32,976 nucleotides of DNA, taken from positions 1 to 32,976 of IMG/VR virus record IMGVR_UViG_3300010300_000052. One strand, given 5' to 3'. Below are positions 6,912-25,117 of the stretch, piece after piece; the stretch's first letter is position 1; each line of letters begins with the position of its first letter. A program made the position numbers and the translations under genes. Under the pieces are notes generated by a model. It worked only from the letters and a program-made list of their open reading frames with translations, made no database searches and had not been told where the DNA came from. Origin of the DNA: a virus.

Positions 6912-7355
6912 ATGCTAAAATGGCTTAACGGTGACGTTAGCGATAAAGGTAAAATAGGCATTACGTTTGGCTGTATGGATCTGCTACATGCTGGTCATGT
7001 AGCAATGTTAGCTGAAGCAAAACAAGTATGCGATTATCTTATCGTTGGATTACAGAATGATCCCTCAGTCGATAGACCTGAGAAAAATAAACCTATACAA
7101 TCTATCTTTGAACGGCAGTTACAAATTACAGCATGTAGATTTGTTGACGAAGTCGTTGTTTATAATACAGAAGCCGATGTTCTTGACATACTAAAAACGT
7201 TACCTATTGATGTTAGAATCATAGGCAGCGATTATGTAGATAAAGATTTTACTGGAAAAGATTACTGCGTTGACAACAATATTGATATTGTGTATAATAG
7301 CAGAGATCATTCATTCAGTACAAGCAGCTTAAGGGATAGAGTTAAAAATTCATGA
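6912..7355 (+). CDS. Cytidylyltransferase-like nucleotidyltransferase (TagD/RfaE-domain type)
   Basis: 147 aa. GITFGCMDLLHAGHVAML contains the HxGH motif (HAGH) of the nucleotidyltransferase superfamily, preceded by the usual TFGCFD-like strand. The C-terminal FSTSSLRDR matches the (I/F)SSSxxR motif that binds the triphosphate, and a DVRIIGSDYVDKDFTGKD segment is typical of glycerol-3-phosphate cytidylyltransferases and the RfaE adenylyl/cytidylyl domain. The enzyme would activate a phosphorylated sugar or polyol with CTP or ATP, matching the phage's other sugar genes. Its last bases overlap gp43 (ATGA), and its 3' end carries a consensus promoter (7270-7298) pointing at gp43. Which nucleotide and acceptor are used cannot be decided here. 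Confidence 0.85.
   Translation: MLKWLNGDVSDKGKIGITFGCMDLLHAGHVAMLAEAKQVCDYLIVGLQNDPSVDRPEKNKPIQSIFERQLQITACRFVDEVVVYNTEADVLDILKTLPIDVRIIGSDYVDKDFTGKDYCVDNNIDIVYNSRDHSFSTSSLRDRVKNS
7270..7298 (+). promoter_or_regulatory. Consensus sigma70-like promoter for gp43
   Basis: TTGACA (7270-7275), 17 nt, TATAAT (7293-7298): a perfect match inside the cytidylyltransferase frame. The expected start is near 7305, giving a leader of about 47 nt before the gp43 ATG at 7352. Confidence 0.7.
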
Positions 7356-9865
7356 AGTTTTATACAAACATAGTTCAAAACAACAATGTAATTCTTGAAC
7401 GATATATTGAAGATGGTGTACAGAAACAACGTGAAGTTCCATACATGCCTACATTGTTTGTTAGTTCTGTAAAACAAACTCCATTCAAAACTATCAAAGG
7501 CGAGAACGTTGAACCAAAGATGTTCAACAGCATTAGAGAAGCTCGTAATTACATTCAAGAGCATAACAACATATCAAACAAGCCAATCTATGGTATGCAA
7601 CAATTTGCTTATGCATACATCAATGAAGAGTATCCGGAAAGAGACTTTGATGTAAATCAGCTTACCGTATTCAACTTTGATATTGAGACCAAGTCTGATG
7701 AAGGATTTCCTAACATAGCAGAAGCTGATAAAGATATTCTGTCAATTGCTGTAAGATGCAAAAATCAATCATACATTCTTGGTTTAGATGAATACAAGCC
7801 TAGCGGTGATGACATCTACATTAAATGTTCATCAGAAACCGATCTACTTCTAAAGTTCATTGAACTGTGGGTAAGATGTAACCCAGATATTATTACAGGT
7901 TGGAACATAGAGATGTTCGATATTCCTTATACCGTTAATAGAATTAGACGTAGAGTTGGCAAAGAAGCAGCAGATAGACTTTCACCTTGGGGCATGGTTA
8001 GAGATAGACATATTCCTACAGCTGCATCAAGAGCTAACAATGATGACACTCCTAATGCAAAAGATATTATTGGTGTCACGGTTCTTGATTACATGAATCT
8101 ATACAAAAAGTTTACATACTCGCAGCAAGAAAGCTACGCACTAGATTACATTGGTGAAGCAGAACTAGGTGAAAAGAAATTAGACTATAGTGAGTACGGA
8201 ACGCTCAATGAACTGTACAAACAAGACTATCAGAAGTTCCTAGACTATAACATCAAAGACGTTGTGCTTGTTGAACGACTAGATGACAAGATGAAGCTAA
8301 TTGAGCAAGCATGTACAATTGCATACGATGCTGGTGTCAACTTGGTAGACTCGTTGACGTCTGTGCGTATGTGGGACGTTATTATTCATAACTATTTGTA
8401 TGCTAAGAACATTATTGTTCCCCCTAAGGAACAAGTTGATAAAGATTTTCAAGTAGAAGGTGCTTACGTTAAGGATCCACAAACTGGATTACATAACTGG
8501 GTTGTATCGTTTGACTTAAACAGTCTGTACCCTCACTTGATTATGCAATACAATATCTCACCAGAAACGTACGTTAGAGATATTGGTCAAAGACCCACTG
8601 CAGATGAAATTATAGGTGGGCTATATAACAATGAAAACATCAGAAAGTATATGGACGACCATAACGTTACAGTATGCGGTTCAGGTGCCATGTACACAAA
8701 GGACTTCCAAGGTTTCTTACCTAAGCTGATGGAAACAATGTATAATGATCGTGTGAAATGGAAGTCACGAATGATCGAAGCAAGGAAACAATATGAAAAA
8801 CAACCTAGTAGAGAACTTGAGTACGAGATTGCAAAATGCAACAATATGCAAATGGCTAAGAAGATCCAGCTTAACTCAGCATACGGTGCTCTTGGTAACC
8901 AGTATTTTAGATTTTTTGATACAAAGTATGCTGAGTCTATTACACTATCTGGCCAGCTTTCGATTAAGTGGATGGAGACTCACCTCAACAAGTTCCTTAA
9001 TGCAAAGCTTCAGACGGAAGCAGTTGATTATGTCTTGGCGGTCGATACAGATTCGTTATATGTTACTCTCGACGAGCTGGTCAATCAATCGGGTATTGAT
9101 ACGACTGAAAATAGCAAAGTGGTGGACTTCCTCGACAGAGTGGCTACAGAGGTCCTTGAGCCGTTCATAGACAAGAGTTACTCCCAACTTGCAGATTACG
9201 TTAATGCGTATGAGCAAAAGATGGTAATGAAGCGAGAAGCAATCGCTCGTAATGGTGTATGGACTGGAAAGAAACATTACATCCTTGATGTGTATGATAA
9301 TGAGGGCGTCCGATATGCTGAACCTAAACTTAAAACAATGGGCATGGAAGCAGTACGATCGTCTACACCTAAAATCGTTCGTGAAAATTTAAAGAAAGCC
9401 TATGGCGTTTTGTTACGTGAAGGTGAGAAAGCTCTTAGAGAATTTATTGATAACTTTGAGAAAGAATTTAGACAATTGCCATTTGAGGACGTGTCTTTTC
9501 CAAGAGGATGTCGATTCATTAAAAAATGGGAAAGTGCTTCAGACATATACAAGAAAGGTACGCCGATCCATGTTCGTGGAGCATTACTATATAACAAACT
9601 AATAGAAGAAAAGAAATTAACTAAGAAATATAATAACGTATTTGAGGGAGACAAGATTAAGTTCTGTTACATGAAGTTGCCTAACCCTCTTAGAGAAAAC
9701 GTTTTTGCTGTTCCAATGGTACTTCCACCAGAACTACAATTGGATCAATATGTGGACTATGAGAAACAATTTGATAAAGCATTTAAGGAGCCATTAAATA
9801 ACATTTGTGAATGTATGGGGTGGTCATTAGAAAAGCAGTTCACTCTTGATGATTTCTTTGTATAA
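7352..9865 (+). CDS. 43: DNA polymerase, family B, T4 gp43
   Basis: 837 aa (T4 gp43 is 898), uninterrupted by introns. The 3'-5' exonuclease motifs are present: Exo I FNFDIETKSDEG (about 107-118), Exo II ITGWNIEMFDIPY (about 181-193) and Exo III YNIKDVVLVE (about 299). Polymerase motifs are A SFDLNSLYPHLIMQYN (about 386), B KIQLNSAYGALGN (about 504) and C AVDTDSLYV (about 563), followed by KKHYILDVYDNEG and KTMGMEAVRSSTP. The C-terminus LEKQFTLDDFFV is a clamp-binding peptide expected to dock on gp45. It replicates the phage genome with proofreading. The stop codon lies inside a late promoter (9861). Its start overlaps the cytidylyltransferase, but a strong internal promoter suggests independent early expression. 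Confidence 0.98.
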   Translation: MKFYTNIVQNNNVILERYIEDGVQKQREVPYMPTLFVSSVKQTPFKTIKGENVEPKMFNSIREARNYIQEHNNISNKPIYGMQQFAYAYINEEYPERDFDVNQLTVFNFDIETKSDEGFPNIAEADKDILSIAVRCKNQSYILGLDEYKPSGDDIYIKCSSETDLLLKFIELWVRCNPDIITGWNIEMFDIPYTVNRIRRRVGKEAADRLSPWGMVRDRHIPTAASRANNDDTPNAKDIIGVTVLDYMNLYKKFTYSQQESYALDYIGEAELGEKKLDYSEYGTLNELYKQDYQKFLDYNIKDVVLVERLDDKMKLIEQACTIAYDAGVNLVDSLTSVRMWDVIIHNYLYAKNIIVPPKEQVDKDFQVEGAYVKDPQTGLHNWVVSFDLNSLYPHLIMQYNISPETYVRDIGQRPTADEIIGGLYNNENIRKYMDDHNVTVCGSGAMYTKDFQGFLPKLMETMYNDRVKWKSRMIEARKQYEKQPSRELEYEIAKCNNMQMAKKIQLNSAYGALGNQYFRFFDTKYAESITLSGQLSIKWMETHLNKFLNAKLQTEAVDYVLAVDTDSLYVTLDELVNQSGIDTTENSKVVDFLDRVATEVLEPFIDKSYSQLADYVNAYEQKMVMKREAIARNGVWTGKKHYILDVYDNEGVRYAEPKLKTMGMEAVRSSTPKIVRENLKKAYGVLLREGEKALREFIDNFEKEFRQLPFEDVSFPRGCRFIKKWESASDIYKKGTPIHVRGALLYNKLIEEKKLTKKYNNVFEGDKIKFCYMKLPNPLRENVFAVPMVLPPELQLDQYVDYEKQFDKAFKEPLNNICECMGWSLEKQFTLDDFFV

Positions 9866-11038: not shown

Positions 11039-12766
11039 ATGTGTAGCGTTGAAGGCTTTACTGGTAAGCATGATTTTACCATTGAACAATTTACAAAATT
11101 TAATAAATGTAGAGGACCTGATGATACAACGTATTTTCAAGATTCGTTATTATCATTAGGGCACAATCTACTATCGATATCACCAAATTCTACTCCAAAA
11201 CGACAGCCCTGGATATGTCCAGGAGGACAAATTCTTACATGGAATGGTGAGATTTTTGGACTAGAAAATAATCAATTTGATACAGAAGTGTTTGGTGAAA
11301 TTATATCCAAGTACTCTATTGCTAAAATGAAGCATAATATTAATTGGATGGGTGCAGGAGTTATATACGACCCAGCAAAGTATCGTCTTACATTGTTTAG
11401 AGACCATTTTGGAATTAAACCTTTATACTTCATTGAGCATCAACAAAATATTTTCTTTTCTTCAACAGCAAGACCGCTATATGCAGTACTTCAAAGTAAA
11501 GGAATTCAAATCCAAAAGGACAAAGATCACTTTAGATCGTTTCAAGCTAATGACAGACATATGTTTGGCATGTATACGCCCGTAAATCGCATTCAAAGAT
11601 TGGCGCCAGGTCAAGTATTGGTATGGGATGTTAGAGAAGGTAAATTTGTAGGAGAAGACAATCTCTGGGGACAAGATCCTAAAAAATGGAATCTTCGTAT
11701 GAATATGAATTGGATCCCTGAGAAATTAGAACAAAAGTTTGTAAAAGGAATAACAGAAGTATGTAATGCGCCTGGAATAAAGAAAACTATTTCGTTAAGT
11801 GGCGGTTTGGATAGTACGTTGATAGCATCTATTGCAAAAGATTTAGATAATATAGACGTCCAGACAGTTAAATATGAAAACTTTACTCCTGAACAAGATG
11901 AAACAATCAACGAAAATATGTTCTTTGAATGGGACCTTGCTAAAAGGACAGCAAAGAAATTTAATCTTCCATTTCATACAACCAAATATCCGTATGATAA
12001 TAATAAAATAGTTAAGTATGGACAATTTGCACTGTCTATTCCTCAGTGGGACAGAAATAGATGGACAACAAGATTTGCAAACATAAGAGCAGCTGCAGAT
12101 AGAGGATCTAAAATATATATTGTTGGAGATGGTGCTGATGAACTATTGACTGGATACAACGGTGATTATGATTACTTTGTGGAAAGAAAAAGACCAAGGA
12201 TGAATAAAGAAATCATCGATGAATATGCTAACCGTGATTTTAAATGGTGGCACCTTAAAAGAGTTACGCCGCATTGGTTGTTTGGCGATGATGTAATTAA
12301 CAATCGTTTGTTTACTAGAATATTCCAGCACGTTGATTCTTTCTGTACGACAGTAGATCATATGTGTGGTAATTTTGGAATGGAAAGTAGAATGCCATTT
12401 TTACATCAAGAGCTTGCCAAATTTTTGTTAAAAATACCAGCGGTTGATAAGCTCCATGTTCCGTTTAGTTATAGTGAGAATCATAGACATATGTACAAAG
12501 GTCATTATAAAATAATGATACGTGATTACATGAAAGCATACATTCCTATGCATATTCGTAAAAGACATAGCAAGATAGGATTCTCTACTCCATGGAATGC
12601 GAGGGACGATGCAAGAAATCAAGCGTTAGCAAAAGAGGATTGGAGATTATTACAGTTACAAGCAGAGAAGTTTTTTAACTTTGATGTTGATTTTAAAAAT
12701 GAATGGGACGATAATAGCGAATCAGTTAATGACAGTAGAATTACTGTAGACCTAAGTGGAGATTAG
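11039..12766 (+). CDS. asnB: Glutamine-dependent asparagine synthetase (AsnB-like amidotransferase)
   Basis: 575 aa (bacterial AsnB about 550-640). Cys2 after the initiator Met is the glutaminase nucleophile. The N-terminal amidotransferase domain shows RGPDDT, LTWNGEIFG and FRDHFGIKPLYF. The synthetase domain has the PP-loop SLSGGLDSTLIASI (near residue 255) and GDGADELLTGY (near 363), with FGMESRMPFLHQELAKF further on. It transfers an amide nitrogen from glutamine to an adenylated carboxylate, normally aspartate. Phage homologues may instead amidate surface sugars or other carboxylates, such as the uronic acid that the enzyme at 3121 could make. The ribosome site GAAGGACATT is good. The end nearly abuts UvsX. 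Confidence 0.93.
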   Translation: MCSVEGFTGKHDFTIEQFTKFNKCRGPDDTTYFQDSLLSLGHNLLSISPNSTPKRQPWICPGGQILTWNGEIFGLENNQFDTEVFGEIISKYSIAKMKHNINWMGAGVIYDPAKYRLTLFRDHFGIKPLYFIEHQQNIFFSSTARPLYAVLQSKGIQIQKDKDHFRSFQANDRHMFGMYTPVNRIQRLAPGQVLVWDVREGKFVGEDNLWGQDPKKWNLRMNMNWIPEKLEQKFVKGITEVCNAPGIKKTISLSGGLDSTLIASIAKDLDNIDVQTVKYENFTPEQDETINENMFFEWDLAKRTAKKFNLPFHTTKYPYDNNKIVKYGQFALSIPQWDRNRWTTRFANIRAAADRGSKIYIVGDGADELLTGYNGDYDYFVERKRPRMNKEIIDEYANRDFKWWHLKRVTPHWLFGDDVINNRLFTRIFQHVDSFCTTVDHMCGNFGMESRMPFLHQELAKFLLKIPAVDKLHVPFSYSENHRHMYKGHYKIMIRDYMKAYIPMHIRKRHSKIGFSTPWNARDDARNQALAKEDWRLLQLQAEKFFNFDVDFKNEWDDNSESVNDSRITVDLSGD

Positions 12767-12767
12767 T

Positions 12768-13832
12768 ATGGGTGAATTTTTTAGAAATTTTGTTGAGGAT
12801 CTTAAGGACGAGGATACTTCTATTGCATCAGATGGTTTAGCTGCTGGTGAGTTTAGTGGCACAATAGATTCTGGTTCATATATCCTTAATGCATTGTTAA
12901 GTGGATCCTTGTTTGGTGGTATTCCTAACAATAAAGTTACTGCATTTGCAGGAGAATCAGCTACAGGTAAAACGTTCTTTGTGTTAGGATGTGTAAAGAC
13001 ATTCTTAGAATCTAATCCTGATGCTGGCGTAATGTATTATGATACTGAAGCAGCTGTTACTAAGGATATGATGGAAGCAAGAGGAATTGATACTTCTCGC
13101 GTAATCATTTCAGAACCTCAGACCATTCAAGAGTTTAGACATCATGCACTTAAGTCTATTGACCTGTATGAAAAAACTCCTAAAGATAAGAGACCTCCAT
13201 TCATGTTTGTCTTAGATTCTTTAGGGCTACTCTCTACTACAAAAGAATTAGAAGATATCTCTGAAGGTAAAGAAACTAGAGATATGACCAAAGCTCAAGT
13301 AATCAAAGCTGCATTTAGAGTACTTACACTTAAACTTGCAAGAGCTGGCATACCAATGTTAGTAACTAACCACGTATACGAAGTAATTGGAAGTTATATT
13401 CCACAGAAAGAGATGGGTGGCGGTACTGGACTTAAGTATGCTGCAAGCACGATTGTGTATCTCGGCAAGAAAAAAGAAAGAGATACCACTACAAAAGAAG
13501 TTGTTGGTAATATTATCAAAGCAACTACTTACAAATCAAGATTGTCTAAAGAAAATGCTACAGCAGAAGTTCTGTTAAGGTATGACAGTGGTCTTGATAA
13601 ACATTATGGACTTATTGAGTTAGCTATTGAAGCTGGCTTATTTGAAAAGAATGGGTCTAGGATTGTGGCTAATGGTAAAAGCGTATACGCTAAAAACATT
13701 CTTGGTAGTCCAGAAGAATATTTTACTACTGAAGTCCTCAATGAACTAGACAAATTTGCACAGGAGAAATTTAGTTATGGTTCCGGATCCCAAATGGCAT
13801 CTGAGGATATCGTTAGTGAAGAGTCTGCTTAG
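12768..13832 (+). CDS. uvsX: UvsX, RecA-like recombinase
   Basis: 354 aa from ATG 12768 (an in-frame GTG four codons earlier would overlap the AsnB stop; AAGTGGAG precedes the ATG). Walker A is GESATGKT (62-69), Walker B is FVLDS (about 147-151), and a GGGTGLKYAAS segment and LTLKLARAGIPMLVTNH are UvsX-like. The acidic tail ASEDIVSEESA matches the usual UvsX C-terminal regulatory region. It promotes strand exchange for T4-style recombination-dependent replication and repair. T4 UvsX is about 390 aa. A 51-aa membrane protein gene begins inside its last 56 bases in another frame. Confidence 0.96.
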   Translation: MGEFFRNFVEDLKDEDTSIASDGLAAGEFSGTIDSGSYILNALLSGSLFGGIPNNKVTAFAGESATGKTFFVLGCVKTFLESNPDAGVMYYDTEAAVTKDMMEARGIDTSRVIISEPQTIQEFRHHALKSIDLYEKTPKDKRPPFMFVLDSLGLLSTTKELEDISEGKETRDMTKAQVIKAAFRVLTLKLARAGIPMLVTNHVYEVIGSYIPQKEMGGGTGLKYAASTIVYLGKKKERDTTTKEVVGNIIKATTYKSRLSKENATAEVLLRYDSGLDKHYGLIELAIEAGLFEKNGSRIVANGKSVYAKNILGSPEEYFTTEVLNELDKFAQEKFSYGSGSQMASEDIVSEESA

Positions 13833-13932
13833 AATAGCAGCTGGATTTGCATTAATCGTTCACAACTTTCTTATTGCAGGCGTACTATTCATAGTCGCTG
13901 AAGCATTAGGTATCCTTGAAGAGCTTGTATGA
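13777..13932 (+). CDS. 51-aa single-pass membrane protein overlapping the uvsX 3' end
   Basis: Starts at ATG 13777 inside uvsX in another frame, with AGGAG at 13762-13766 giving a correct 10-nt spacing, and stops at 13930-13932 in an ATGA overlap with the next gene. Residues about 15-45 are strongly hydrophobic (RIAAGFALIVHNFLIAGVLF and onward), preceded by a basic segment (KWHLRISLVKSLLR), giving a positive-inside single transmembrane helix; the tail is acidic (EALGILEEL). It fills an otherwise unexplained 96-nt gap between uvsX and the oxygenase, with tight coupling on both sides. Function unknown; no lysis motif is evident. Confidence 0.75.
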   Translation: MVPDPKWHLRISLVKSLLRIAAGFALIVHNFLIAGVLFIVAEALGILEELV

Positions 13933-14519
13933 GTATAGCAGATATTAAACACAGAGGTCTTTTTAGAGTAGATTTATTACGAATAGTATTAGATTTGCCT
14001 CACAAAGAGATCTCTGAGTATCTTATTGAATCTAGCAAAGATTGGGAAAGGTATACAACATACCATGATGCTAAATTAAATAAAAAAGTGCTTGAAGGTA
14101 TGCCTGGATATCAAGATATGATTAATGATATCACAAAAGCATCGCACGAATTTGTTAAGAGAACCAAACGTAAACCATTCATAGACGATGATGACGTATT
14201 CATATCTGCATGGGTAAGTATCTATGATGAACACGATCAACATGGTTCACATTTTCACCCCAAGTCTCTTATAGCTGGAACATACTATCCACAGACAAGT
14301 TCGGAAAGTTCTGCCATTACTTTAGAATCTCCGTGGACTAATTTTACAAGTCATGATACAATACCATTTGAGGAGTTGTTGTTTGACTATAAACCTAATC
14401 CTGGCGATATGTTATTATGGCCAGCGTGGTTGAACCATAGAGTGTCACCACAAAAGAAATCAGATACAAAAAGAATAGCAATTTCATTTAACATAGATTA
14501 CCAGAGATATCATCAATGA
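13929..14519 (+). CDS. 2OG-Fe(II) oxygenase-like protein
   Basis: 196 aa. FISAWVSIYDEHDQHGSHFH followed by PKSLIAGTYYP, then a ESPW segment, and NPGDMLLWPAWLNHRVSPQ followed by KRIAISFNID, is the double-stranded beta-helix layout of the putative 2OG-Fe(II) oxygenase family related to TIGR02466. Candidate iron ligands are His108 or His110 and His170, with Arg182 binding 2-oxoglutarate. These enzymes hydroxylate proteins, small molecules or nucleobases; marine T4-like phages encode many. The substrate is unknown. Location between uvsX and gp41 would fit either a DNA-directed role or simple cargo. The start overlaps the membrane protein, the stop overlaps gp41 by 4 nt. Confidence 0.8.
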   Translation: MSIADIKHRGLFRVDLLRIVLDLPHKEISEYLIESSKDWERYTTYHDAKLNKKVLEGMPGYQDMINDITKASHEFVKRTKRKPFIDDDDVFISAWVSIYDEHDQHGSHFHPKSLIAGTYYPQTSSESSAITLESPWTNFTSHDTIPFEELLFDYKPNPGDMLLWPAWLNHRVSPQKKSDTKRIAISFNIDYQRYHQ

Positions 14520-15874
14520 TTGAGAAACAGATACTAGCAGGACTTATTAATGATGAACAATATACTCGTCAAGTTCTTCCGTTCTTAAAAGAACATTATT
14601 TTGGTCAAATAGATCAAAAGCTAGTATTCAAGATTATTACTCAATACTTTGAGAAGTACAATGCACTACCTAAGAGAGAAGCGCTATCAATTGAGATAGA
14701 ACAAGTAGCAGGGGTAGATGATAAAACCATACAAAGTGCATTACAGACTGTTAACGAATTACCTACGACGGATGTCGATGAATGGCTAGTTGATCAAACA
14801 GAGACTTTTTGTCAAGATAAAGCAATCTACAATGCAATCATGTCTGGCATTGAGATCATAGAGAAGACCCCTGATAATAAAGGACAACTTCCTGGGCTAT
14901 TGCAAGAAGCATTGCAAGTGAGTTTTGATAACAGCATTGGTCACGATTTTATTGATGACGCTGATAGACGATATGAGTTCTATCATCAAGAAGAAACTAG
15001 AGTTCCTTTTGACCTAGATATGATGAACAAAATTACTAAAGGTGGATTACCAACAAAAACGCTTAATATTATCCTAGCAGGTACTGGCGTAGGTAAGTCA
15101 TTGTTCATGTGCCATTGTGCAGCAGCTAACATTACAGAAGGCAAGAATGTATTATACATCACAATGGAGATGGCAGAAGAAAGAATTGCTGAAAGAATTG
15201 ACGCTAATTTATTAGACGTAACTATGGAAGACCTCAATGTATTACCTAAGTCAGCCTACGATAAGAAAATGGCAAGACTAAAAGAAAGGTGTACAGGTAA
15301 ATTAGTAATTAAAGAATACCCAACAGCAAGTGCAAATGCTAATCACTTTAGACATCTGATTCAAGAACTAAGAACAAAAAAGAACTTTAAACCAGATGTA
15401 ATATATATTGACTACCTCAACATATGTGCATCGTTTAGAATTAGAGGAGGCGCAAATGCAGGATCGTATGCCATTGTCAAAGCGATTGCAGAAGAATTAC
15501 GAGGACTGGCTGTGGAATGCAACGTGCCAATCATCAGTGCGACACAAACCAATAGACAAGGGTTCTCAAGCTCTGATATTGGTTTGGAAGATACGTCGGA
15601 GTCTTTCGGTCTACCGGCAACAGCTGACTTCATGGTGGCACTCTCGCAAACAGAAGAACTTGAACGATTAAACCAATACATGGTCAAGCAGCTTAAGAAT
15701 AGATTTGCTGATCCAGCTTATCATAGAAAATTTGTTGTTGGTGTAGATAAGTCTCGTATGAGACTTTATGATGTAGAGCAGAGTGCTCAGAAAGAAATTA
15801 TTGATGATACGCCTTTATTTGATAGAAGCGATTCGTCAAAGAACTTAAAAAACATATTTGACGATTTTAAATGA
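14516..15874 (+). CDS. 41: Replicative DNA helicase, DnaB-like, T4 gp41
   Basis: 452 aa (T4 gp41 is 475). N-terminal helical domain begins MIEKQILAGLINDEQYTRQV. The RecA-fold domain has Walker A LAGTGVGKSLFMCH (about 189-196 for the P-loop), a YITMEMAEERIAERID motif (H1a-like), Walker B DVIYIDYLN (about 293-299), and ISATQTNRQGF (H3/H4 region). The hexamer unwinds the fork 5'-3' on the lagging strand and carries gp61 primase, whose gene starts at 32387. The tail is acidic with LFDRSDSSKNLKNIFDDF. Translation is coupled at both ends by ATGA overlaps. Confidence 0.95.
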   Translation: MIEKQILAGLINDEQYTRQVLPFLKEHYFGQIDQKLVFKIITQYFEKYNALPKREALSIEIEQVAGVDDKTIQSALQTVNELPTTDVDEWLVDQTETFCQDKAIYNAIMSGIEIIEKTPDNKGQLPGLLQEALQVSFDNSIGHDFIDDADRRYEFYHQEETRVPFDLDMMNKITKGGLPTKTLNIILAGTGVGKSLFMCHCAAANITEGKNVLYITMEMAEERIAERIDANLLDVTMEDLNVLPKSAYDKKMARLKERCTGKLVIKEYPTASANANHFRHLIQELRTKKNFKPDVIYIDYLNICASFRIRGGANAGSYAIVKAIAEELRGLAVECNVPIISATQTNRQGFSSSDIGLEDTSESFGLPATADFMVALSQTEELERLNQYMVKQLKNRFADPAYHRKFVVGVDKSRMRLYDVEQSAQKEIIDDTPLFDRSDSSKNLKNIFDDFK

Positions 15875-17469
15875 AAATATTAACAACATACCTAGGACAT
15901 GAATCTAACATAGTAACTTACATAGATGGTAAGATTACTATCTTTGAACTAGATAAACTTTTAGGTGAAAAATGGACAAAAGTAGCTACTAAACCTGTAG
16001 TAGAAATTTGTAATATATTTGAACAGGTGTTTGATATTATTGGCACTAATTCATTTGATCTTTGGGTTAATGGATCCATTGGTGATGAAGGGAACGGTAA
16101 TGGAGACGTATGGGCTACTAAATTCAAAAAAATCATAGATTACAAGAGACATATTAACGGCCCTGGACACCACTTATGTCACGGTTTCAGTTCTTTTTAT
16201 CAATCTCCGTTTGAAAAAGCATTTATTATCTCTAGTGACGGCGGAGGTAATGATGGCGTATTTAATATGTACAGAGCAGATAGACAAAATGGCCTTCAAT
16301 TATTTCAGCGAATAGATAGGTTTGATTTTGGAACAATCTATGCTCTGTTAGGATGTTTAAGTAAAGAGATTACTGATACTACTGGACATTATTTAGATGT
16401 AGCAGGTAAAGCAATGGCATTAGCTAGCGTAGGTCATGATCGTAGTAGAGATGCAAAGTTAAGAAATTTTATTCAAGACTTATACACCGGACAACCTTTT
16501 AGTAATTTTAATGCATATGTTGGTTTAAATAAACAGGCCCACAACGTTAATGTGGCTGTAGGCAATCATGTAAAAGCTAAATTCCAATCTATAGAAGATA
16601 ACAGTTTATCAAGACAAATCTGTGAAATAAGTCAGACGCAACTTGAAAATAAGTTTAATTCAATAGTCACTGACAGATCGTATGAAATATTCTCTCGATA
16701 CGATGGTAATCTAGTTCTTACTGGCGGTGTTGCAATGAACGTTGTGAACAATCAAAAACTAAGAGATAAGCAAGGTGTTGATTTATTTGTTCCATGTAAT
16801 CCTAGTGATAGAGGTCTTGCGTTAGGACTATTGTATTGGTATCTACATTTGACTGGTATGGAAATTCCTAGAGGTTCACAACACTATGCAGGACCTCCAT
16901 TAATAGCTGATGGTCCTATTGATCCATCTAAAAGAAAGACATCAATCAAAACAATTGCAAACATGCTTAAAAAAGGTGCTATCCTTGGTGTAGCAGAAGG
17001 CAATGGTGAAATAGGAATGAGAGCTTTAGGTAGACGATCAATCATTTGTGATCCAAGCATTCCTGGAATAAAAGACAAAATTAATGCTGAGGTCAAAGGA
17101 AGAGAATGGTTTAGACCATTTGCACCGATAGTATTAGAAGAACACTTAGATGGATTCAAGTCATCCTCATTTGATAACTTAGAATATATGGCTTATGCTG
17201 TTCCAGTAACAGATGAGTTTGCTGAGAAGTATCCTGCTGTATGTCATGTGGACAATACAGCCAGAGTTCAATTGTGTGATGATGAAGATAGCACAGTATA
17301 CAAAATTATGAAAGAATTGGGAACACCATTGCTAAACACCTCTTTCAATATTCAAGGGCAACCTATAATTGCTCGAGAATCAGAGGCATTTGATATGTTA
17401 AACAGTGGCGTCTTAGACGGCATTGTCGTGAATGGTGTCCTATATAAAAAACCTAAAAGTGATAAATAA
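15871..17469 (+). CDS. Carbamoyltransferase, NodU/CmcH family
   Basis: 532 aa, near full family length (about 550-600). The N-terminal ASKHA-like Kae1-type domain shows GPGHHLCHGFSSFYQSPFEK (near residue 97) with the metal-binding HxxxH-type histidines and SSDGGGNDGVFN. LVLTGGVAMNVVNNQ and CNPSDRGLALGL mark the second lobe. The C-terminal YrdC-like domain has GEIGMRALGRRSIICDP and GREWFRPFAP, the carbamoyl-phosphate and ATP site. These enzymes move a carbamoyl group from carbamoyl phosphate to a hydroxyl of a sugar or antibiotic. In this phage a glycan or modified base is the likely acceptor. It overlaps gp41 by 4 nt and ends just before the ncRNA region. Confidence 0.93.
   Translation: MKILTTYLGHESNIVTYIDGKITIFELDKLLGEKWTKVATKPVVEICNIFEQVFDIIGTNSFDLWVNGSIGDEGNGNGDVWATKFKKIIDYKRHINGPGHHLCHGFSSFYQSPFEKAFIISSDGGGNDGVFNMYRADRQNGLQLFQRIDRFDFGTIYALLGCLSKEITDTTGHYLDVAGKAMALASVGHDRSRDAKLRNFIQDLYTGQPFSNFNAYVGLNKQAHNVNVAVGNHVKAKFQSIEDNSLSRQICEISQTQLENKFNSIVTDRSYEIFSRYDGNLVLTGGVAMNVVNNQKLRDKQGVDLFVPCNPSDRGLALGLLYWYLHLTGMEIPRGSQHYAGPPLIADGPIDPSKRKTSIKTIANMLKKGAILGVAEGNGEIGMRALGRRSIICDPSIPGIKDKINAEVKGREWFRPFAPIVLEEHLDGFKSSSFDNLEYMAYAVPVTDEFAEKYPAVCHVDNTARVQLCDDEDSTVYKIMKELGTPLLNTSFNIQGQPIIARESEAFDMLNSGVLDGIVVNGVLYKKPKSDK
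17461..17468 (+). promoter_or_regulatory. Variant late promoter element GATAAATA upstream of the candidate ncRNA
   Basis: Differs by one base from TATAAATA and overlaps the carbamoyltransferase stop. The expected start at about 17474 coincides with the first base of the outer helix of the candidate RNA (17475). Confidence 0.35.
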
Positions 17470-19484: not shown

Positions 19485-20882
19485 ATGGCATATCTAAAAC
19501 TGACAGATTCAGGAAAGAATTTATCTCAACAAGTCTCCTCAAACGGAGATTACAACGGGATGAAGCGTATTGATATCATTCAGAAGAAGATAGATGATGG
19601 AAAGCATTTTACCATTGGCGATAAAGAAGGTGGTAAGAAGATTGAAGGTCTTGCATACGATACAAAAACAAACATGCTCACTTATAGAGAGCCTGGCAAG
19701 ACTGAATTCAAAGAAATAAAAATTACACAAATCTTTAAAGATCCAGATTTTGGTGGTGGTAAAGGAAGTGGCGGTGGAGCAGATGATACGAAGTATACAG
19801 AATCACTGCAATGTTACTTTTGTTCGTATGTCTACAATGTGGTTGGAAGTACGGTAACAAGTTATAGCTTTGAAGACCTTGCTAAGGGTAAGCAATATGT
19901 TAAAGCAAGTGAGACATTAGAGAATTGTTTAAAGAATGGTCCTAAGATATGGATTGAAACGGACGTTTATTTGAAGACAGCAAACGCATTGATAAAAAAA
20001 TGGAAACCAACTGGTAAGACATATTTCCACAGAGGTTCTCCATTTATGGATAAAATTTACAAAGCAAAAGCTGCTTGCCATAAATTAGACAAAAAAAGTG
20101 AAAAGTCACAAGCACCAGGATCGTTTAGTAATGACAAATGGAATCCAGGAGACATTTGGGCATCAACACTACAACCACAAACAGATCCTTTAAAGGATTA
20201 TGCAACAACTTGGGGTCATCTTAATAATAGAGTAGAGCAACTATACAAAGACAAACAGTTATTAGGAATCTCATTAAAGAAAGTTGAAAGAGATTCAGCA
20301 AAAATAGAAGAGTTCAACAAACAAGGAACAACTAAAACACCAGTCAGATTTGTTGGAATGAAGTTTGGATCTACTGGTGACTTCTTTTCATCTATGGACG
20401 GATACATAGAAACAGATAAAAGTAAAGTTCAGTTTAGATCGTTCAGTGGTGGTACTTCTAGTTGGCAGGGTGAGATTAAAGGTGGTGCAGCTGCTGGAGG
20501 AAAGATTGGCGGTGGTAACATAGACTTCTATATGAAAGAGGTGTTTGGAACTGGATTATACCCATTTGGTGATGAAAGAAGTACAGTTAGTTATATGGAT
20601 TCTGTACAATTCATGAGTGAGTTTTATGATCTGTATGCAAAAGTAAACAACAAGACACAAAACTATAAGCCTTTGAAACAACCAAAAGAGTTTTTAGCTG
20701 AGCTTAAGAAGATGAACGAAACAGATAGAGCTAAGTTTATGTTTTCAAAATACTTAGTTCTTAGAATGTATAGTGCATTAGATGATGCTACTACAGTTAA
20801 CAGAGACAAATTTGCAACCAGATTTTTCACATATGCGTTAAGCGCTACTGATCAGTCAAGTTTTTTTATTAAGGTATCATAA
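19485..20882 (+). CDS. Large late protein of unknown function, possible nuclease-like core
   Basis: 465 aa. N-terminal domain (about 1-88), then a Gly-rich linker (FGGGKGSGGGADD, about 88-100), then a CYFC pair (LQCYFCSYVYNVVG). In the middle, KWNPGDIWAS followed about 40 residues later by LLGISLKKVE resembles the D...(x)K core of PD-(D/E)xK nucleases, in which a WNPxDI strand is followed by a GxSLKK strand; this is pattern-based and weak. A second Gly-rich region (GGAAAGGKIGGGNIDFYM) follows. It is the first gene after a late promoter and overlaps the ligase-like gene at its stop (TAATG), suggesting joint action. Virion-packaged protein or DNA-processing enzyme are both possible. Confidence 0.75.
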   Translation: MAYLKLTDSGKNLSQQVSSNGDYNGMKRIDIIQKKIDDGKHFTIGDKEGGKKIEGLAYDTKTNMLTYREPGKTEFKEIKITQIFKDPDFGGGKGSGGGADDTKYTESLQCYFCSYVYNVVGSTVTSYSFEDLAKGKQYVKASETLENCLKNGPKIWIETDVYLKTANALIKKWKPTGKTYFHRGSPFMDKIYKAKAACHKLDKKSEKSQAPGSFSNDKWNPGDIWASTLQPQTDPLKDYATTWGHLNNRVEQLYKDKQLLGISLKKVERDSAKIEEFNKQGTTKTPVRFVGMKFGSTGDFFSSMDGYIETDKSKVQFRSFSGGTSSWQGEIKGGAAAGGKIGGGNIDFYMKEVFGTGLYPFGDERSTVSYMDSVQFMSEFYDLYAKVNNKTQNYKPLKQPKEFLAELKKMNETDRAKFMFSKYLVLRMYSALDDATTVNRDKFATRFFTYALSATDQSSFFIKVS

Positions 20883-22087
20883 TGGCAAAGAATACACACA
20901 TGGAACATTTAGAAGATGCTATCTTCAATCTTGGTATTGAAGGTACTCGTGAATCTGTGAACTTCTTAATCCAAATGAGAGAAACATTAAACGGTACTGC
21001 TCAAAGAGCATTACGTACATCAGTTAAGTGGGACGGTGCACCAGCTATCTTTATTGGTGAACATCCTGAAACAAAACAATTTATTGTAGCAAAGAAAAGT
21101 TTATTTAACAAGACACCACTTTACTATACAAGTATTGCTGAGATAAACAGAACTACAGATTTATCTGCTGAACTTAAAGGTAAGTTTAGAGAAGCATTCA
21201 ATGGATACAAAGATGCTGGGATCAAAGGAATCATTCAAGGAGATTTTCTATGGGAAAACAAAGACCTTAAGAAAGAGACCATTGATGGAGAAGATGTAAT
21301 TACATTCCATCCAAACACTATTGTTTATTCTGTACCAGTATCATCAGAATTAGGACAAAAAATTGCCAAGTCAAGATTTGGAATTGTATGGCATACAACT
21401 TATAGCGGATCCAGTATTGAAAAGATGCGATCATCTTTTGGTGTAAGAATGCCTAAGCAGCCAAGAAACGGTGTACAGTTTGATGCAATGTATAATGATG
21501 TATCAGGATCAGCATCTTTAACGATGAAAGAGTCAAACGAACTTGCACGAACATTGACTACTGCAGGACAGAATTTCAAAAAGGTGTCAAGAAATACATT
21601 TGATATTATAAACCAAGAAGAAATCTCAATGATATGTAAAACTTACGTTAATACATTTATTAGAGGTAATCGAATGCCTCCTGCTGGAGAATTAGCATCA
21701 GGTCTTGTACCTTACATTCAAGCTAAATTCTTAAAAGAGATGGACACTAAAAAGACGCCTAGAGGAAAGAAAACTGTCCGTGAGAGAATGATGAGAGTAG
21801 TTAAACCTCTTCAAAGCGTAGGTGGCCAACAATTACTACACGTGTTTCAATTGTATACAAGTCTCACACATGCAAAGAATTTATTAGTTAAAAAATTAAA
21901 CAGTGCTAGCTTTATTAAGACTTTCCTTAAGACTAAAGATGGTTGGAAAGTAACAGGTCAAGAGGGATTTGTTGCTATCGACCGAACAGGAACTAAAGCA
22001 GTCAAGATGGTAGACAGACTTGACTTTAGTTATGCCAACTTCAGTCCGGATATAATTAAAGGTTGGCAGACAGACTTACGGAGATAA
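20882..22087 (+). CDS. Ligase/nucleotidyltransferase-like protein (possibly DUF6267)
   Basis: 401 aa. TSVKWDGAPAIF has K49-W-D-G52, matching motif I (KxDG) of ATP-dependent DNA and RNA ligases, in which the Lys becomes adenylylated. GIIQGDFLWE (117-125) resembles motif III, FGIVWHTTYSG (166-176) a IIIa-like strand, QEGFVAID (360-367) motif IV (EGxV), and KAVKMVDRLD (372-381) motif V. The spacing between III and IV is stretched by about 180 helical residues, unusual for ligases. I recall homologues in marine phages named only as a DUF. If active it could seal nucleic acid or transfer AMP to another target. It directly follows the nuclease-like protein and shares its late operon. Confidence 0.75.
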   Translation: MAKNTHMEHLEDAIFNLGIEGTRESVNFLIQMRETLNGTAQRALRTSVKWDGAPAIFIGEHPETKQFIVAKKSLFNKTPLYYTSIAEINRTTDLSAELKGKFREAFNGYKDAGIKGIIQGDFLWENKDLKKETIDGEDVITFHPNTIVYSVPVSSELGQKIAKSRFGIVWHTTYSGSSIEKMRSSFGVRMPKQPRNGVQFDAMYNDVSGSASLTMKESNELARTLTTAGQNFKKVSRNTFDIINQEEISMICKTYVNTFIRGNRMPPAGELASGLVPYIQAKFLKEMDTKKTPRGKKTVRERMMRVVKPLQSVGGQQLLHVFQLYTSLTHAKNLLVKKLNSASFIKTFLKTKDGWKVTGQEGFVAIDRTGTKAVKMVDRLDFSYANFSPDIIKGWQTDLRR

Positions 22088-22171: not shown

Positions 22172-25117
22172 ATGCCAATTGATAATCAACCAATAGCTGG
22201 AAAAAGTCCAGGAATACATACAGGAGCTCCAGGAGTAGTTACTCCTCCACCTCCATTAAAAAAACCTAAAAAAGATGGCCTTAAATTAGAAAAGCCATCT
22301 AAGAATCTTAAAGATATCGTCGATATCAATCCTACCATGAAAGAAGCAGCAGAGAAACATGCTGTAATGACATTTGGTAGAATGAATCCTCCTACAACAG
22401 GTCACGAGAAACTTATTCATAAAACACATAGCATTGCTCAAAAGCATGGAGCAAAAGCTCATATTGTTTTATCTCATTCTCATGATGCAAAGAACAACCC
22501 TTTACCTCAAAAAGATAAAATTAACTATGTTAAGAAAATCCACAAAGGAGTTCATGTAACAGGATCCAGTAAAGAACACCCAAACTTCTTATCACACGCT
22601 AAGAAGTTACATCAAGCAGGTCATGATCATCTACACGTTGTAGCTGGATCTGACAGAGTTGGTGAATATAAAAGAGTATTAAACAAATATAATGGTCACC
22701 CAGATCATTATAACTTTAAATCGATCACAGTACATAGTGCAGGTCAAAGAGATCCAGATAGTGAAGGCACATCTGGTATCAGTGGTACAAAGATGAGAGC
22801 TCATGCTAGAGCTGGAGACCACAATTCATTTAAAGCTGGCCTACCTAAGTCATTACATGGTGATCATAAAAAAATTATGTCACACATTAAAGAAGAAATA
22901 GAGAACGCAGAATTATTAGAACAGTTTACGGATGAAGTAATGGATCAATTGATTGCAGAAGATTATGCAGTCGAAGAGATGATCAACGAAAGAGTTATGA
23001 CGTTGTTACAAAGACGTAAAGCAGCTCTTAAGATGAGACGTCTTAGATTTAGAATTGCTCGTGCTAGAAAACTTAAAAAGAAAAGAATGGCAACGACGGA
23101 TATGTTGACAAGAAGAGCAAGACGTCAAGCAAGATCATTCATCAGAAAAAGAATTGCAGGTAAACAAGGTGGTGATTATGCAAACTTATCACCCTCCCAA
23201 AAAATTCAGATAGATAAAAGAGTAGAGAAAAAAGCAGCATTCATTACTAAGCTCGCAAAAAGATTGCTGCCTAAAGTTAAACAAGCTGAGCTAGCAAGGT
23301 TAAGAAGTGCAAGAAAACAAAAAGAATCAATCGACATCAATCTCGATTTCACAAATTACCTCGCCGAACTTCAAAATGGTGGGTCGACCAGTGTTAATGA
23401 TAGAGGGCAGCAAGAAGAAAAAGCTGTCAATAACTCTACAACAAGAACAGAAGAAGCTAATCCTAAGGTAGAACAATTAAAAGATAAGCATAAGAACGAA
23501 GCAGAAGCTATCAAAAAAAGACATGCTATTGAAAAAGAAAAGCTGAAAGCACAAATGGCTAGATCAAAACAAGCACAATTAAGAAGAGAAGCTAAAGAAG
23601 TAGCTGAGGCAGTTGATGTCATGGTAGATGCTTTGGCAGCATTAGAAGAAAAAGCATCAAAGGCTAAAGTTGATTTAGATACTATGTTCGTTGAGTTTGT
23701 TGAAGGATATACGAATCCACATGGACAACAAACACCACAGCAAGGTGGATTTGCAAACGTAAACAGACTGATTGCTGAAATGTCTCAAGCAGAAAAAGAT
23801 AAAGCAGAAGACATTGTTAAAGGCATGAAGAAGAATGCATCAGATTTTAGAAAGAGATACGGTAAAGATGCCGAGTCTGTAATGTATGCTACAGCTAATA
23901 AAATGGCTCAAGAAAACGTAAAAGAAAGTTTAAAAGATTGGTTTGGCAAAGGTAAGAAAGGCGATTGGGTTCGTGTAGATACTAAAGGCGAAATCAAAGG
24001 CGATTGTGCAAGAGAAGAAGGAGAAGGTAAGCCTAAGTGCATGCCAAGATCCAAAGCACATTCAATGAGTAAAGATGATAGAGCTTCTGCTGCAAGAAGA
24101 AAGAGAGCAGCGGATCCTCAAGCAGATAGACCAGGAACTGGCAACAAGCCTATCATGGTTAAGACTCAGAAAGAAGAATCACAGCAAGTAGACGAGATAT
24201 CAGCAAAAACATTAACCTCGTATAGAGATAAAGCTACTGCAGATAAGAGTAGATTAAGAGATAAAATGCATCAACCAATGGGAAAAGATAATTCTAATTG
24301 GGAGAAAAACTATAACAACTTACAGAGAAGAAAAAAAGGTATTGCTACTGCTAATCAAAAACTAGATAAAGCTATTAAAGAAGCAAATAAGCCTAACGAT
24401 CCCAAGTTGTGGGCATCTAAGAAAGCAGCTGCAAAAGCTAAGTTTGATGTTTATCCAAGTGCATACGCAAATGGATGGGCTGTACAACAATATAACAAAG
24501 CAGGTGGCACTTGGAGAAAAACTAACGAAAGTTTAGAAAACGTACATGAAGACAAAAGCGAAAAGACTAAGAAGCTGACCCAACTGTTCAGAATGGGTCT
24601 AGCTAAGAAAGGCGAGCTTCATACAATGCTGCGTATGTTAAAAAGAGACGAAGATGCATTAAAAGATCCAAAGTTACGTAGTAAAATGTATGAGCTTTTA
24701 GATAAACTAACAGACATAGTAACTAAGGATGGACAGATATTTGTTAAAGTCAGACAAGCTGTTCAAAAAGATAGAGATGACTTACAGGCTGTAGAAGAAA
24801 TGTTAGCACTTGAAGGTGTTATTTTAGGAGTTAACAAAGCCTTCGAACAGCTAAATATACAAGAGGATATGTCAGGAATGTCTGTGTCATCTGGTCATAA
24901 AAGATCAGTTGCGCAAGGTGCAGGAATGACTAAAAAGGGCGTGAATGCTTATAGAAGACGTAACCCCGGAAGTAAATTACAAACAGCGGTGACCACTCCT
25001 CCTAGTAAAATGGATCCAGACAGCAAGCCAGCTAAAAGAAGAAAGGCTTTCTGTTCAAGATCAAGAAGTTGGACTAGTGAGAGAGGTAAAGCAGCTAGAA
25101 AGAGATGGAATTGCTAA
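22172..25117 (+). CDS. 981-aa head/core-like protein with N-terminal nucleotidyltransferase domain
   Basis: Multi-domain. Residues 1-60 are Pro/Lys-rich. Residues about 64-235 form a nucleotidyltransferase domain: AVMTFGRMNPPTTGHEKLI (TxGH motif, His78) and GISGTKMRAHA (ISGTxxR, 203-209). Next comes a very basic helical region rich in Arg (KAALKMRRLRFRIARARKL), then long charged coiled coils (EAEAIKKRHAIEKEKLKAQM). Around 610-640 is GDWVRVDTKGEIKGDCAREE with a CMPRSKAHSMSKDD block, and near 770 YPSAYANGWAVQQY. The C-terminus has KKGVNAYRRRNPGSKLQTAV and KRRKAFCSRSRSW. These blocks recur in virion or prohead-core proteins of marine T4-like phages. The enzyme domain may act on NAD-like or sugar-phosphate substrates, or have become structural. 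Confidence 0.8.
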   Translation: MPIDNQPIAGKSPGIHTGAPGVVTPPPPLKKPKKDGLKLEKPSKNLKDIVDINPTMKEAAEKHAVMTFGRMNPPTTGHEKLIHKTHSIAQKHGAKAHIVLSHSHDAKNNPLPQKDKINYVKKIHKGVHVTGSSKEHPNFLSHAKKLHQAGHDHLHVVAGSDRVGEYKRVLNKYNGHPDHYNFKSITVHSAGQRDPDSEGTSGISGTKMRAHARAGDHNSFKAGLPKSLHGDHKKIMSHIKEEIENAELLEQFTDEVMDQLIAEDYAVEEMINERVMTLLQRRKAALKMRRLRFRIARARKLKKKRMATTDMLTRRARRQARSFIRKRIAGKQGGDYANLSPSQKIQIDKRVEKKAAFITKLAKRLLPKVKQAELARLRSARKQKESIDINLDFTNYLAELQNGGSTSVNDRGQQEEKAVNNSTTRTEEANPKVEQLKDKHKNEAEAIKKRHAIEKEKLKAQMARSKQAQLRREAKEVAEAVDVMVDALAALEEKASKAKVDLDTMFVEFVEGYTNPHGQQTPQQGGFANVNRLIAEMSQAEKDKAEDIVKGMKKNASDFRKRYGKDAESVMYATANKMAQENVKESLKDWFGKGKKGDWVRVDTKGEIKGDCAREEGEGKPKCMPRSKAHSMSKDDRASAARRKRAADPQADRPGTGNKPIMVKTQKEESQQVDEISAKTLTSYRDKATADKSRLRDKMHQPMGKDNSNWEKNYNNLQRRKKGIATANQKLDKAIKEANKPNDPKLWASKKAAAKAKFDVYPSAYANGWAVQQYNKAGGTWRKTNESLENVHEDKSEKTKKLTQLFRMGLAKKGELHTMLRMLKRDEDALKDPKLRSKMYELLDKLTDIVTKDGQIFVKVRQAVQKDRDDLQAVEEMLALEGVILGVNKAFEQLNIQEDMSGMSVSSGHKRSVAQGAGMTKKGVNAYRRRNPGSKLQTAVTTPPSKMDPDSKPAKRRKAFCSRSRSWTSERGKAARKRWNC

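Follow-up and report, generated by a model that had tools for sequence, protein, structure and literature searches.

Do T4-like cyanophages carry a DNA ligase of their own? Homologues of the gp30 DNA ligase have not been found in cyanomyoviruses, and the review that reports this prefers the use of host ligase, allowing at the same time that distant, unidentified homologues are possible (PMC2984593). The question is raised here by a gene on a 32,976-base fragment of an IMG/VR virus, referred to below as the window. A preliminary description of this gene had pointed to motifs of the kind found in DNA and RNA ligases and capping enzymes. We followed that observation through sequence alignments, a structural model, the genomic setting of the gene and its interruptions in related phages.

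A widespread family without an assigned function

The open reading frame starts with ATG and encodes a full-length member of a Pfam family:

20882-22087, plus strand: DUF6267 protein (PF19782; phrog_455; T4-GC 71 in cyanophage records), 401 residues, assigned from Pfam, PHROG and homologues

The Pfam match runs from residue 4 to residue 388 (E 1.6e-90) and covers positions 1-373 of the 376 in the profile, with 304.6 bits against a gathering cut-off of 27; the match to phrog_455 has an E value of 2.3e-76. Neither Pfam nor PHROG gives a function for these families, and a literature search for the name DUF6267 found no paper using it. The fold and catalytic roles proposed below, drawn from a model and from alignments, are new here. 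With a diverged member as query, homologues are found in 471 of 50,697 phage records. Almost all of the carriers are T4-like phages of Synechococcus and Prochlorococcus, and a few are phages of Pelagibacter, Methylophilales, Stenotrophomonas, Vibrio and Pseudoalteromonas. When records are sorted by the first word of the organism name, DUF6267 and the helicase gp41 occur in 371 and 376 Synechococcus records, respectively, and in 61 each of those named “Cyanophage”. Going by these set totals, the family is about as widespread as gp41 in cyanophage records.

Invariant residues in the order of nucleotidyltransferase motifs

Conservation was read from two alignments, one of 23 homologues from diverse phages (22-67% identical to the window protein) and one of 76 rows, made up of the window protein and 75 IMG/VR homologues. 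Residues K49, D51, G52, K72, Q119, D121, E361, G362, K375 and R379 are invariant in both (23/23 and 76/76), as are H171 and Y174. V364 is kept in 23/23 phage rows and 75/76 IMG/VR rows. The corresponding features of the gene are as follows:

20897-20917, plus strand: N-terminal HxxHxED (H6, H9, E11, D12), nearly invariant in the alignments
21026-21037, plus strand: motif I, K49-x-D51-G52, with the predicted AMP-accepting lysine
21095-21097, plus strand: K72, invariant, at a position that corresponds to the second conserved lysine in T4 Rnl1-type enzymes, about 20 residues past motif I
21236-21244, plus strand: motif III-like Q119-G-D121, part of a modelled strand (117-125)
21962-21973, plus strand: motif IV, E361-G-x-V364 (V in 98/99 rows)
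22004-22018, plus strand: motif V, K375-[LIM]-V-x-R379

The motif order proposed in the preliminary description (KxDG, a motif III-like stretch, EGxV and a motif V lysine) is thus present, with its key residues invariant. This includes K49 of KWDG (residues 49-52), whose conservation in relatives it had named as a check. EGFVA occupies residues 361-365. We take these invariant positions to be those expected for motifs I, III, IV and V of a covalent nucleotidyltransferase. Two of the proposed motifs look different in the alignments. The stretch GIIQGDFLWE, likened to motif III, does lie at residues 116-125 with an acidic residue on a strand, and to that extent the likeness holds; the acid belongs to Q-G-D and is an aspartate, whereas in ligases it is a glutamate. 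The proposed K-x-x-K (K372/K375) does not survive, as position 372 is a lysine in only 4/23 and 1/76 rows and the conserved motif is the one that starts at K375. It holds one lysine, whereas motif V of most ligases has two, the second being absent here.

The description had also supposed that ordinary homology searches may miss a kinship with ligases, and they do. Among the Pfam ligase families, the window protein matches none of PF01068, PF09511 and PF09414 at E values up to 1, and neither single-sequence nor profile searches of PDB sequences return a match. Aligned by hhalign with an Rnl1 alignment, EGFVA...K is set against EGYVA...K (P 0.09, not significant, motifs IV-V only) with K375 opposite the first motif V lysine of Rnl1, and motif I comes to lie on motif I only in the fifth alternative, which is not significant either. 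A search for related loci with an Rnl1 protein led to only one further locus. No ligase family is tied to DUF6267 by sequence search.

A ligase-like core in the predicted structure

An AlphaFold2 model was built from the 76-row alignment (pLDDT 85.9, pTM 0.79). It contains the large helical insertion between motifs III and IV that had been anticipated from the sequence:

21524-21904, plus strand: helical insertion, residues ~215-341, between motifs III/IIIa and IV (model and alignment)

The insertion is shorter in some cyanophage members of the 23-row alignment. Searched against the PDB with Foldseek, the model finds nothing significant (best E 0.1), human DNA ligase IV being second in the list with a non-significant E of 0.18. 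When the Foldseek candidates are aligned by VIA-align, ligases make up 47 of the 50 rows listed, representing about 12 distinct enzymes, and their alignments cover nearly the whole chain around the insertion. The top row listed is Naegleria RNA ligase (Z 7.8, rmsd 4.1 over 184 residues). The three enzymes that the description had suggested for comparison are also aligned, T4 Rnl1 at Z 7.0, T4 Rnl2 at 6.7 and T4 DNA ligase (6dt1) at 5.3; an archaeal DNA ligase reaches 6.3, LIG1 ~6 and LIG4 ~5.6. All of these values lie below 8, where a match may reflect merely a common arrangement. We judge the likeness to be more than that because the list is almost purely one of ligases and agrees with the invariant residues. 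In a search of predicted viral structures (BFVD), a phage RNA ligase (prob 0.85) heads the matches that do not belong to DUF6267. Since Foldseek alone is not significant, the fold call rests on VIA-align and the predicted model. The features of the nucleotidyltransferase superfamily are found together in the predicted protein, namely the motif I lysine, an acid of motif III on a strand, motifs IV and V, and the core fold. It is very likely that DUF6267 has the covalent-nucleotidyltransferase fold, and we consider it probably a polynucleotide ligase of some kind. An unrelated fold, the other outcome that the preliminary description had named as a refutation, is not what the model shows.

T4 Rnl1 (PF09511), T4 Rnl2 (RNA_ligase, PF09414) and Naegleria RNA ligase share with the modelled protein the core fold, KxDG, EGxV and the motif V lysine, and also a second conserved lysine ~20 residues past motif I, at the place of K72. 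DUF6267 differs from them by its helical insertion between motifs III and IV, by QGD, and by a single motif V lysine followed by an arginine; it has no matching C-terminal domain and no significant sequence match to them. It is possible, if doubtful, that DUF6267 is an RNA ligase like these three, repairing RNA such as tRNAs cut by host defence nucleases. They are its top structural matches listed, its EGFVA...K and KxDG are most like those of Rnl1, no OB domain follows motif V, as in Rnl1 and Rnl2, and 20 of 21 DUF6267 phages have no recognisable RNA ligase. However, neither a polynucleotide kinase nor another RNA-repair gene was recognised beside DUF6267, its neighbours being replication genes, phrog_1462 and a cytidylyltransferase, and near-universality in cyanophages would be expected of a gene with a core function more than of an anti-defence gene.

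The likeness to T4 gp30 and other ATP-dependent DNA ligases (PF01068) consists in the same core fold, at the lower Z values of 6dt1 and LIG1, and in a possible role in replication. Unlike them, DUF6267 has no OB domain, motif VI or sequence match: the model contains no OB strands, the chain stops 22 residues past motif V, and motif VI is absent from the protein. The mRNA capping guanylyltransferases have the superfamily motif order I, III, IV, V in common with it, but a capping complex (8p4a) appears only low in the Foldseek list, with an E value of 1.8, and here too DUF6267 differs in having no OB domain.

A setting among replication genes

The gene had been described as expressed late, with structural genes. 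In the window, it instead follows genes for polymerase B, UvsX and a helicase, and two conserved neighbours enclose it:

7352-9865, plus strand: DNA polymerase family B (domain match)
12756-13832, plus strand: UvsX-like recombinase (PHROG)
14516-15874, plus strand: DnaB-like replicative helicase, gp41 (PHROG)
19485-20882, plus strand: upstream neighbour phrog_1462 / T4-GC 533, conserved, with invariant KWxPxDI, SLK and E residues (PHROG, alignment)
22172-25117, plus strand: downstream neighbour, conserved, with a cytidylyltransferase-like N-terminal domain (TTGH motif) and other phage modules (domain matches)

The order gp43-uvsX-gp41-...-DUF6267-cytidylyltransferase recurs in records of cyanophages, pelagiphages and methylophages. 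The T4-type late motif ATAAATA occurs 12 times in the window against 14.8 expected from shuffles, and with no enrichment it provides no promoter argument for late expression. All 12 copies are on the plus strand, many of them at gene junctions, in a number not above chance. The setting of the DUF6267 gene looks more like a replication cluster. The replicative helicase itself is flanked by genes for a NolO-like carbamoyltransferase (15871-17469) and a 2OG-Fe(II) oxygenase (13929-14519).

Baseplate-like and spanin genes are found 6-9 kb downstream of the DUF6267 gene. The distance of 6 kb to the baseplate-like genes could be read as favouring a part in virion structure or assembly, played by a protein whose ligase fold has degenerated and comparable to that of T4 gp63 (Rnl1) in tail-fibre attachment. 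The annotation of T4 Rnl1 homologues as “RNA ligase and tail fiber protein attachment catalyst” offers a precedent for a ligase fold tied to structural proteins. We consider such a role very improbable for DUF6267, as its invariant catalytic residues speak against a dead enzyme and its nearest conserved neighbours are not virion genes.

The upstream neighbour, phrog_1462, overlaps the DUF6267 gene by one base and is often found immediately 5' of it in other phages. Its invariant residues recall PD-(D/E)xK nucleases, a putative likeness for which Pfam and PDB profile searches return nothing reliable and the databases no support. The downstream gene encodes 981 residues, in which several recurrent phage modules follow the cytidylyltransferase-like N-terminus and a DUF6321 forms the C-terminus. 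In S-PM2 and in phrog_455, DUF6267 is fused directly to the cytidylyltransferase domain. The record of an S-PM2 deletion mutant carries this fusion as a single protein of 591 residues (L010:3992-5764).

This conserved pairing and fusion is one point in favour of a nucleotidyltransferase other than a ligase. Its acceptor of AMP or GMP would be a protein, the 5' end of an RNA or a small molecule, and it might act together with the adjacent cytidylyltransferase. The unusual motif III (QGD) and motif V (KxVxR) would also fit, as would the additional conserved residues H6, H9, E11, D12, H171 and Y174, which are atypical of ligases. The pairing nevertheless says little about chemistry, and every listed structural neighbour with the same core is a polynucleotide ligase. 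On balance, we hold a non-ligase activity to be unlikely.

Interruptions of the gene in related phages

In some relatives, the DUF6267 gene is interrupted. The loci concerned lie outside the window and are designated by L-numbers, of which L105 and L103, L106 and L108, L110 and L111, and L112 and L114 are pairs counted as one phage each. In L113 the gene is split past KWDG, and the locus reads 2474-2106, 2074-1424 and 1446-280, all on the minus strand. The first part ends ...VKWDG|CLEKTTKV... followed by a stop, an unrelated open reading frame comes next, and the gene resumes with ...VLAHN|SPAVFAG.... There is a weak intein match in the first part and a DUF6267 match in the last. To judge from the sequence, the layout is probably that of a split intein interrupting motif I; inteins often sit at active sites.

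A second kind of interruption came to light through four IMG/VR homologues with stops, two of them terminal and two in frame near codon 24; pattern scans then added more. In nine phages (L105, L076, L106, L107, L109, L110, L112, L113 and L126), an in-frame stop is found at about codon 24 of the DUF6267 gene. At HMTH[LI]ED or HMEHLED, one codon is replaced by NTN-stop-NTN, in the form CTT TGA CTT in five phages and CTG TGA CTT, CTT TGA CTA, ATT TGA ATT or CTT TAG CTT in the others. The codons flanking the stop specify the same amino acid in 9/9 cases (both are ATT in L109). The frame is otherwise open, save in one contig that ends inside the gene and in the intein-bearing L113, and the stop is bridged by ~80 homologues in each contig piece. 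In a tree made from the downstream part, well-supported branches require a change of its own for each of eight stop alleles. The pN/pS ratios among stop alleles are low on the two sides of the stop (0.12 and 0.27), which is weak evidence only, as they mostly reflect the history before insertion. An alternative genetic code was considered as the cause and rejected, since all three stops end open reading frames of ordinary length on the same contigs. No suppressor tRNA was found in the contig pieces examined, no stop allele in the genome-contig collection, and no obvious shared structure in local RNA folding around the stop.

The stop goes together with changes 5' of the gene. A signature AGGAGG...(GCCGATT or CCGCTCC)-start precedes it in 9/9 distinct TGA sequences (eight phages) and in 0/116 intact ones, and L126 has it likewise, by eye. 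In L109, a complete GIY-YIG endonuclease gene (L109:944-1639, minus strand; Pfam E 5e-6) lies just 5' of DUF6267. C-terminal relics of endonucleases are found directly upstream of DUF6267 in L103/L105, L106/L108, L107, L110/L111 and L126, and the likely original N-terminus is kept upstream of the relic in L105 and L110. A related endonuclease upstream of an intact gene occurs in L055 only (L055:4417-4959; 1/114). Given the signature, the endonuclease and its relics, and the leftover N-termini, it seems that a homing cassette introduced the stop insert, along with a new start, on several occasions. It resembles the bypass cassette of T4 mobA/gene 60, reportedly described by Bonocora et al. in 2011.

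These alleles are candidates for a natural “stop-hop”. A ribosome that hops over the stop would make the normal protein, and one that reads through it a protein longer by two residues. Readthrough is possible instead, as is loss of the gene, and the matching of the codons might be a side effect of the way in which the insert formed. Stop-hops between matched codons are known from synthetic constructs, with no natural in-frame case known as of 2016 (PMC5009743). The DUF6267 stop alleles may be the first natural instance of in-frame stop-hopping by ribosomes, one tied to a homing-endonuclease cassette.

A candidate for the missing ligase

Other ligases are scarce in the 21 records of DUF6267 phages: PF01068 is present in 3/21, PF09414 and PF09511 in 1/21 each, and NAD-dependent ligase (PF01653) in 0/21. 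Thus 18 of the 21 phages have no other recognisable DNA ligase, and three have both kinds. As gp30 is missing from cyanomyoviruses according to the review cited above, carriers of DUF6267 have few other recognisable ligases, and the family is about as prevalent as gp41, a replacement of gp30 is the most economical reading. We give slightly less than an even chance to DUF6267 being a divergent ATP-dependent polynucleotide ligase of phage DNA metabolism that stands in for T4 gp30; of the two substrates, DNA is predicted to be slightly likelier than RNA. More tentatively, it might be the ligase that seals nicks during replication in T4-like cyanophages, pelagiphages and their relatives, with a new architecture in which the core lacks an OB domain and carries a helical insert between motifs III and IV.

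In such an enzyme, K49 would attack the alpha phosphate of ATP to form lysyl-AMP, while K72, D121, E361 and K375 would hold the nucleotide and metal. The AMP would then be transferred to the 5' phosphate at a nick, and attack by the 3' OH would release it. Clamping of the duplex, for which other ligases have an OB or C-terminal domain, would fall to the helical insertion.

A ligase of phage DNA metabolism is favoured by the likeness in fold, the invariant residues, the replication neighbours, the scarcity of other ligases in carriers, and the probable split intein directly past KWDG in L113. Against it count the Z values below 8, the missing sequence link, the lack of an OB domain and motif VI, the one lysine in motif V, and D in place of E in motif III. 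That the closest structures are RNA ligases and not DNA ligases, and that three of 21 phages have both DUF6267 and a recognisable DNA ligase, also counts against it. The host ligase could serve these phages instead.

T4-like cyanophages are abundant marine viruses which, on paper, are without a ligase for their Okazaki fragments (PMC2984593). DUF6267 provides a single candidate: as a near-universal cyanophage protein predicted to combine a ligase fold with the catalytic residues, it may be the “missing” ligase. If this is true, a function would be assigned to a so far uncharacterised Pfam domain that several hundred sequenced phages carry, and an OB-less design would be added to those of the ligases.
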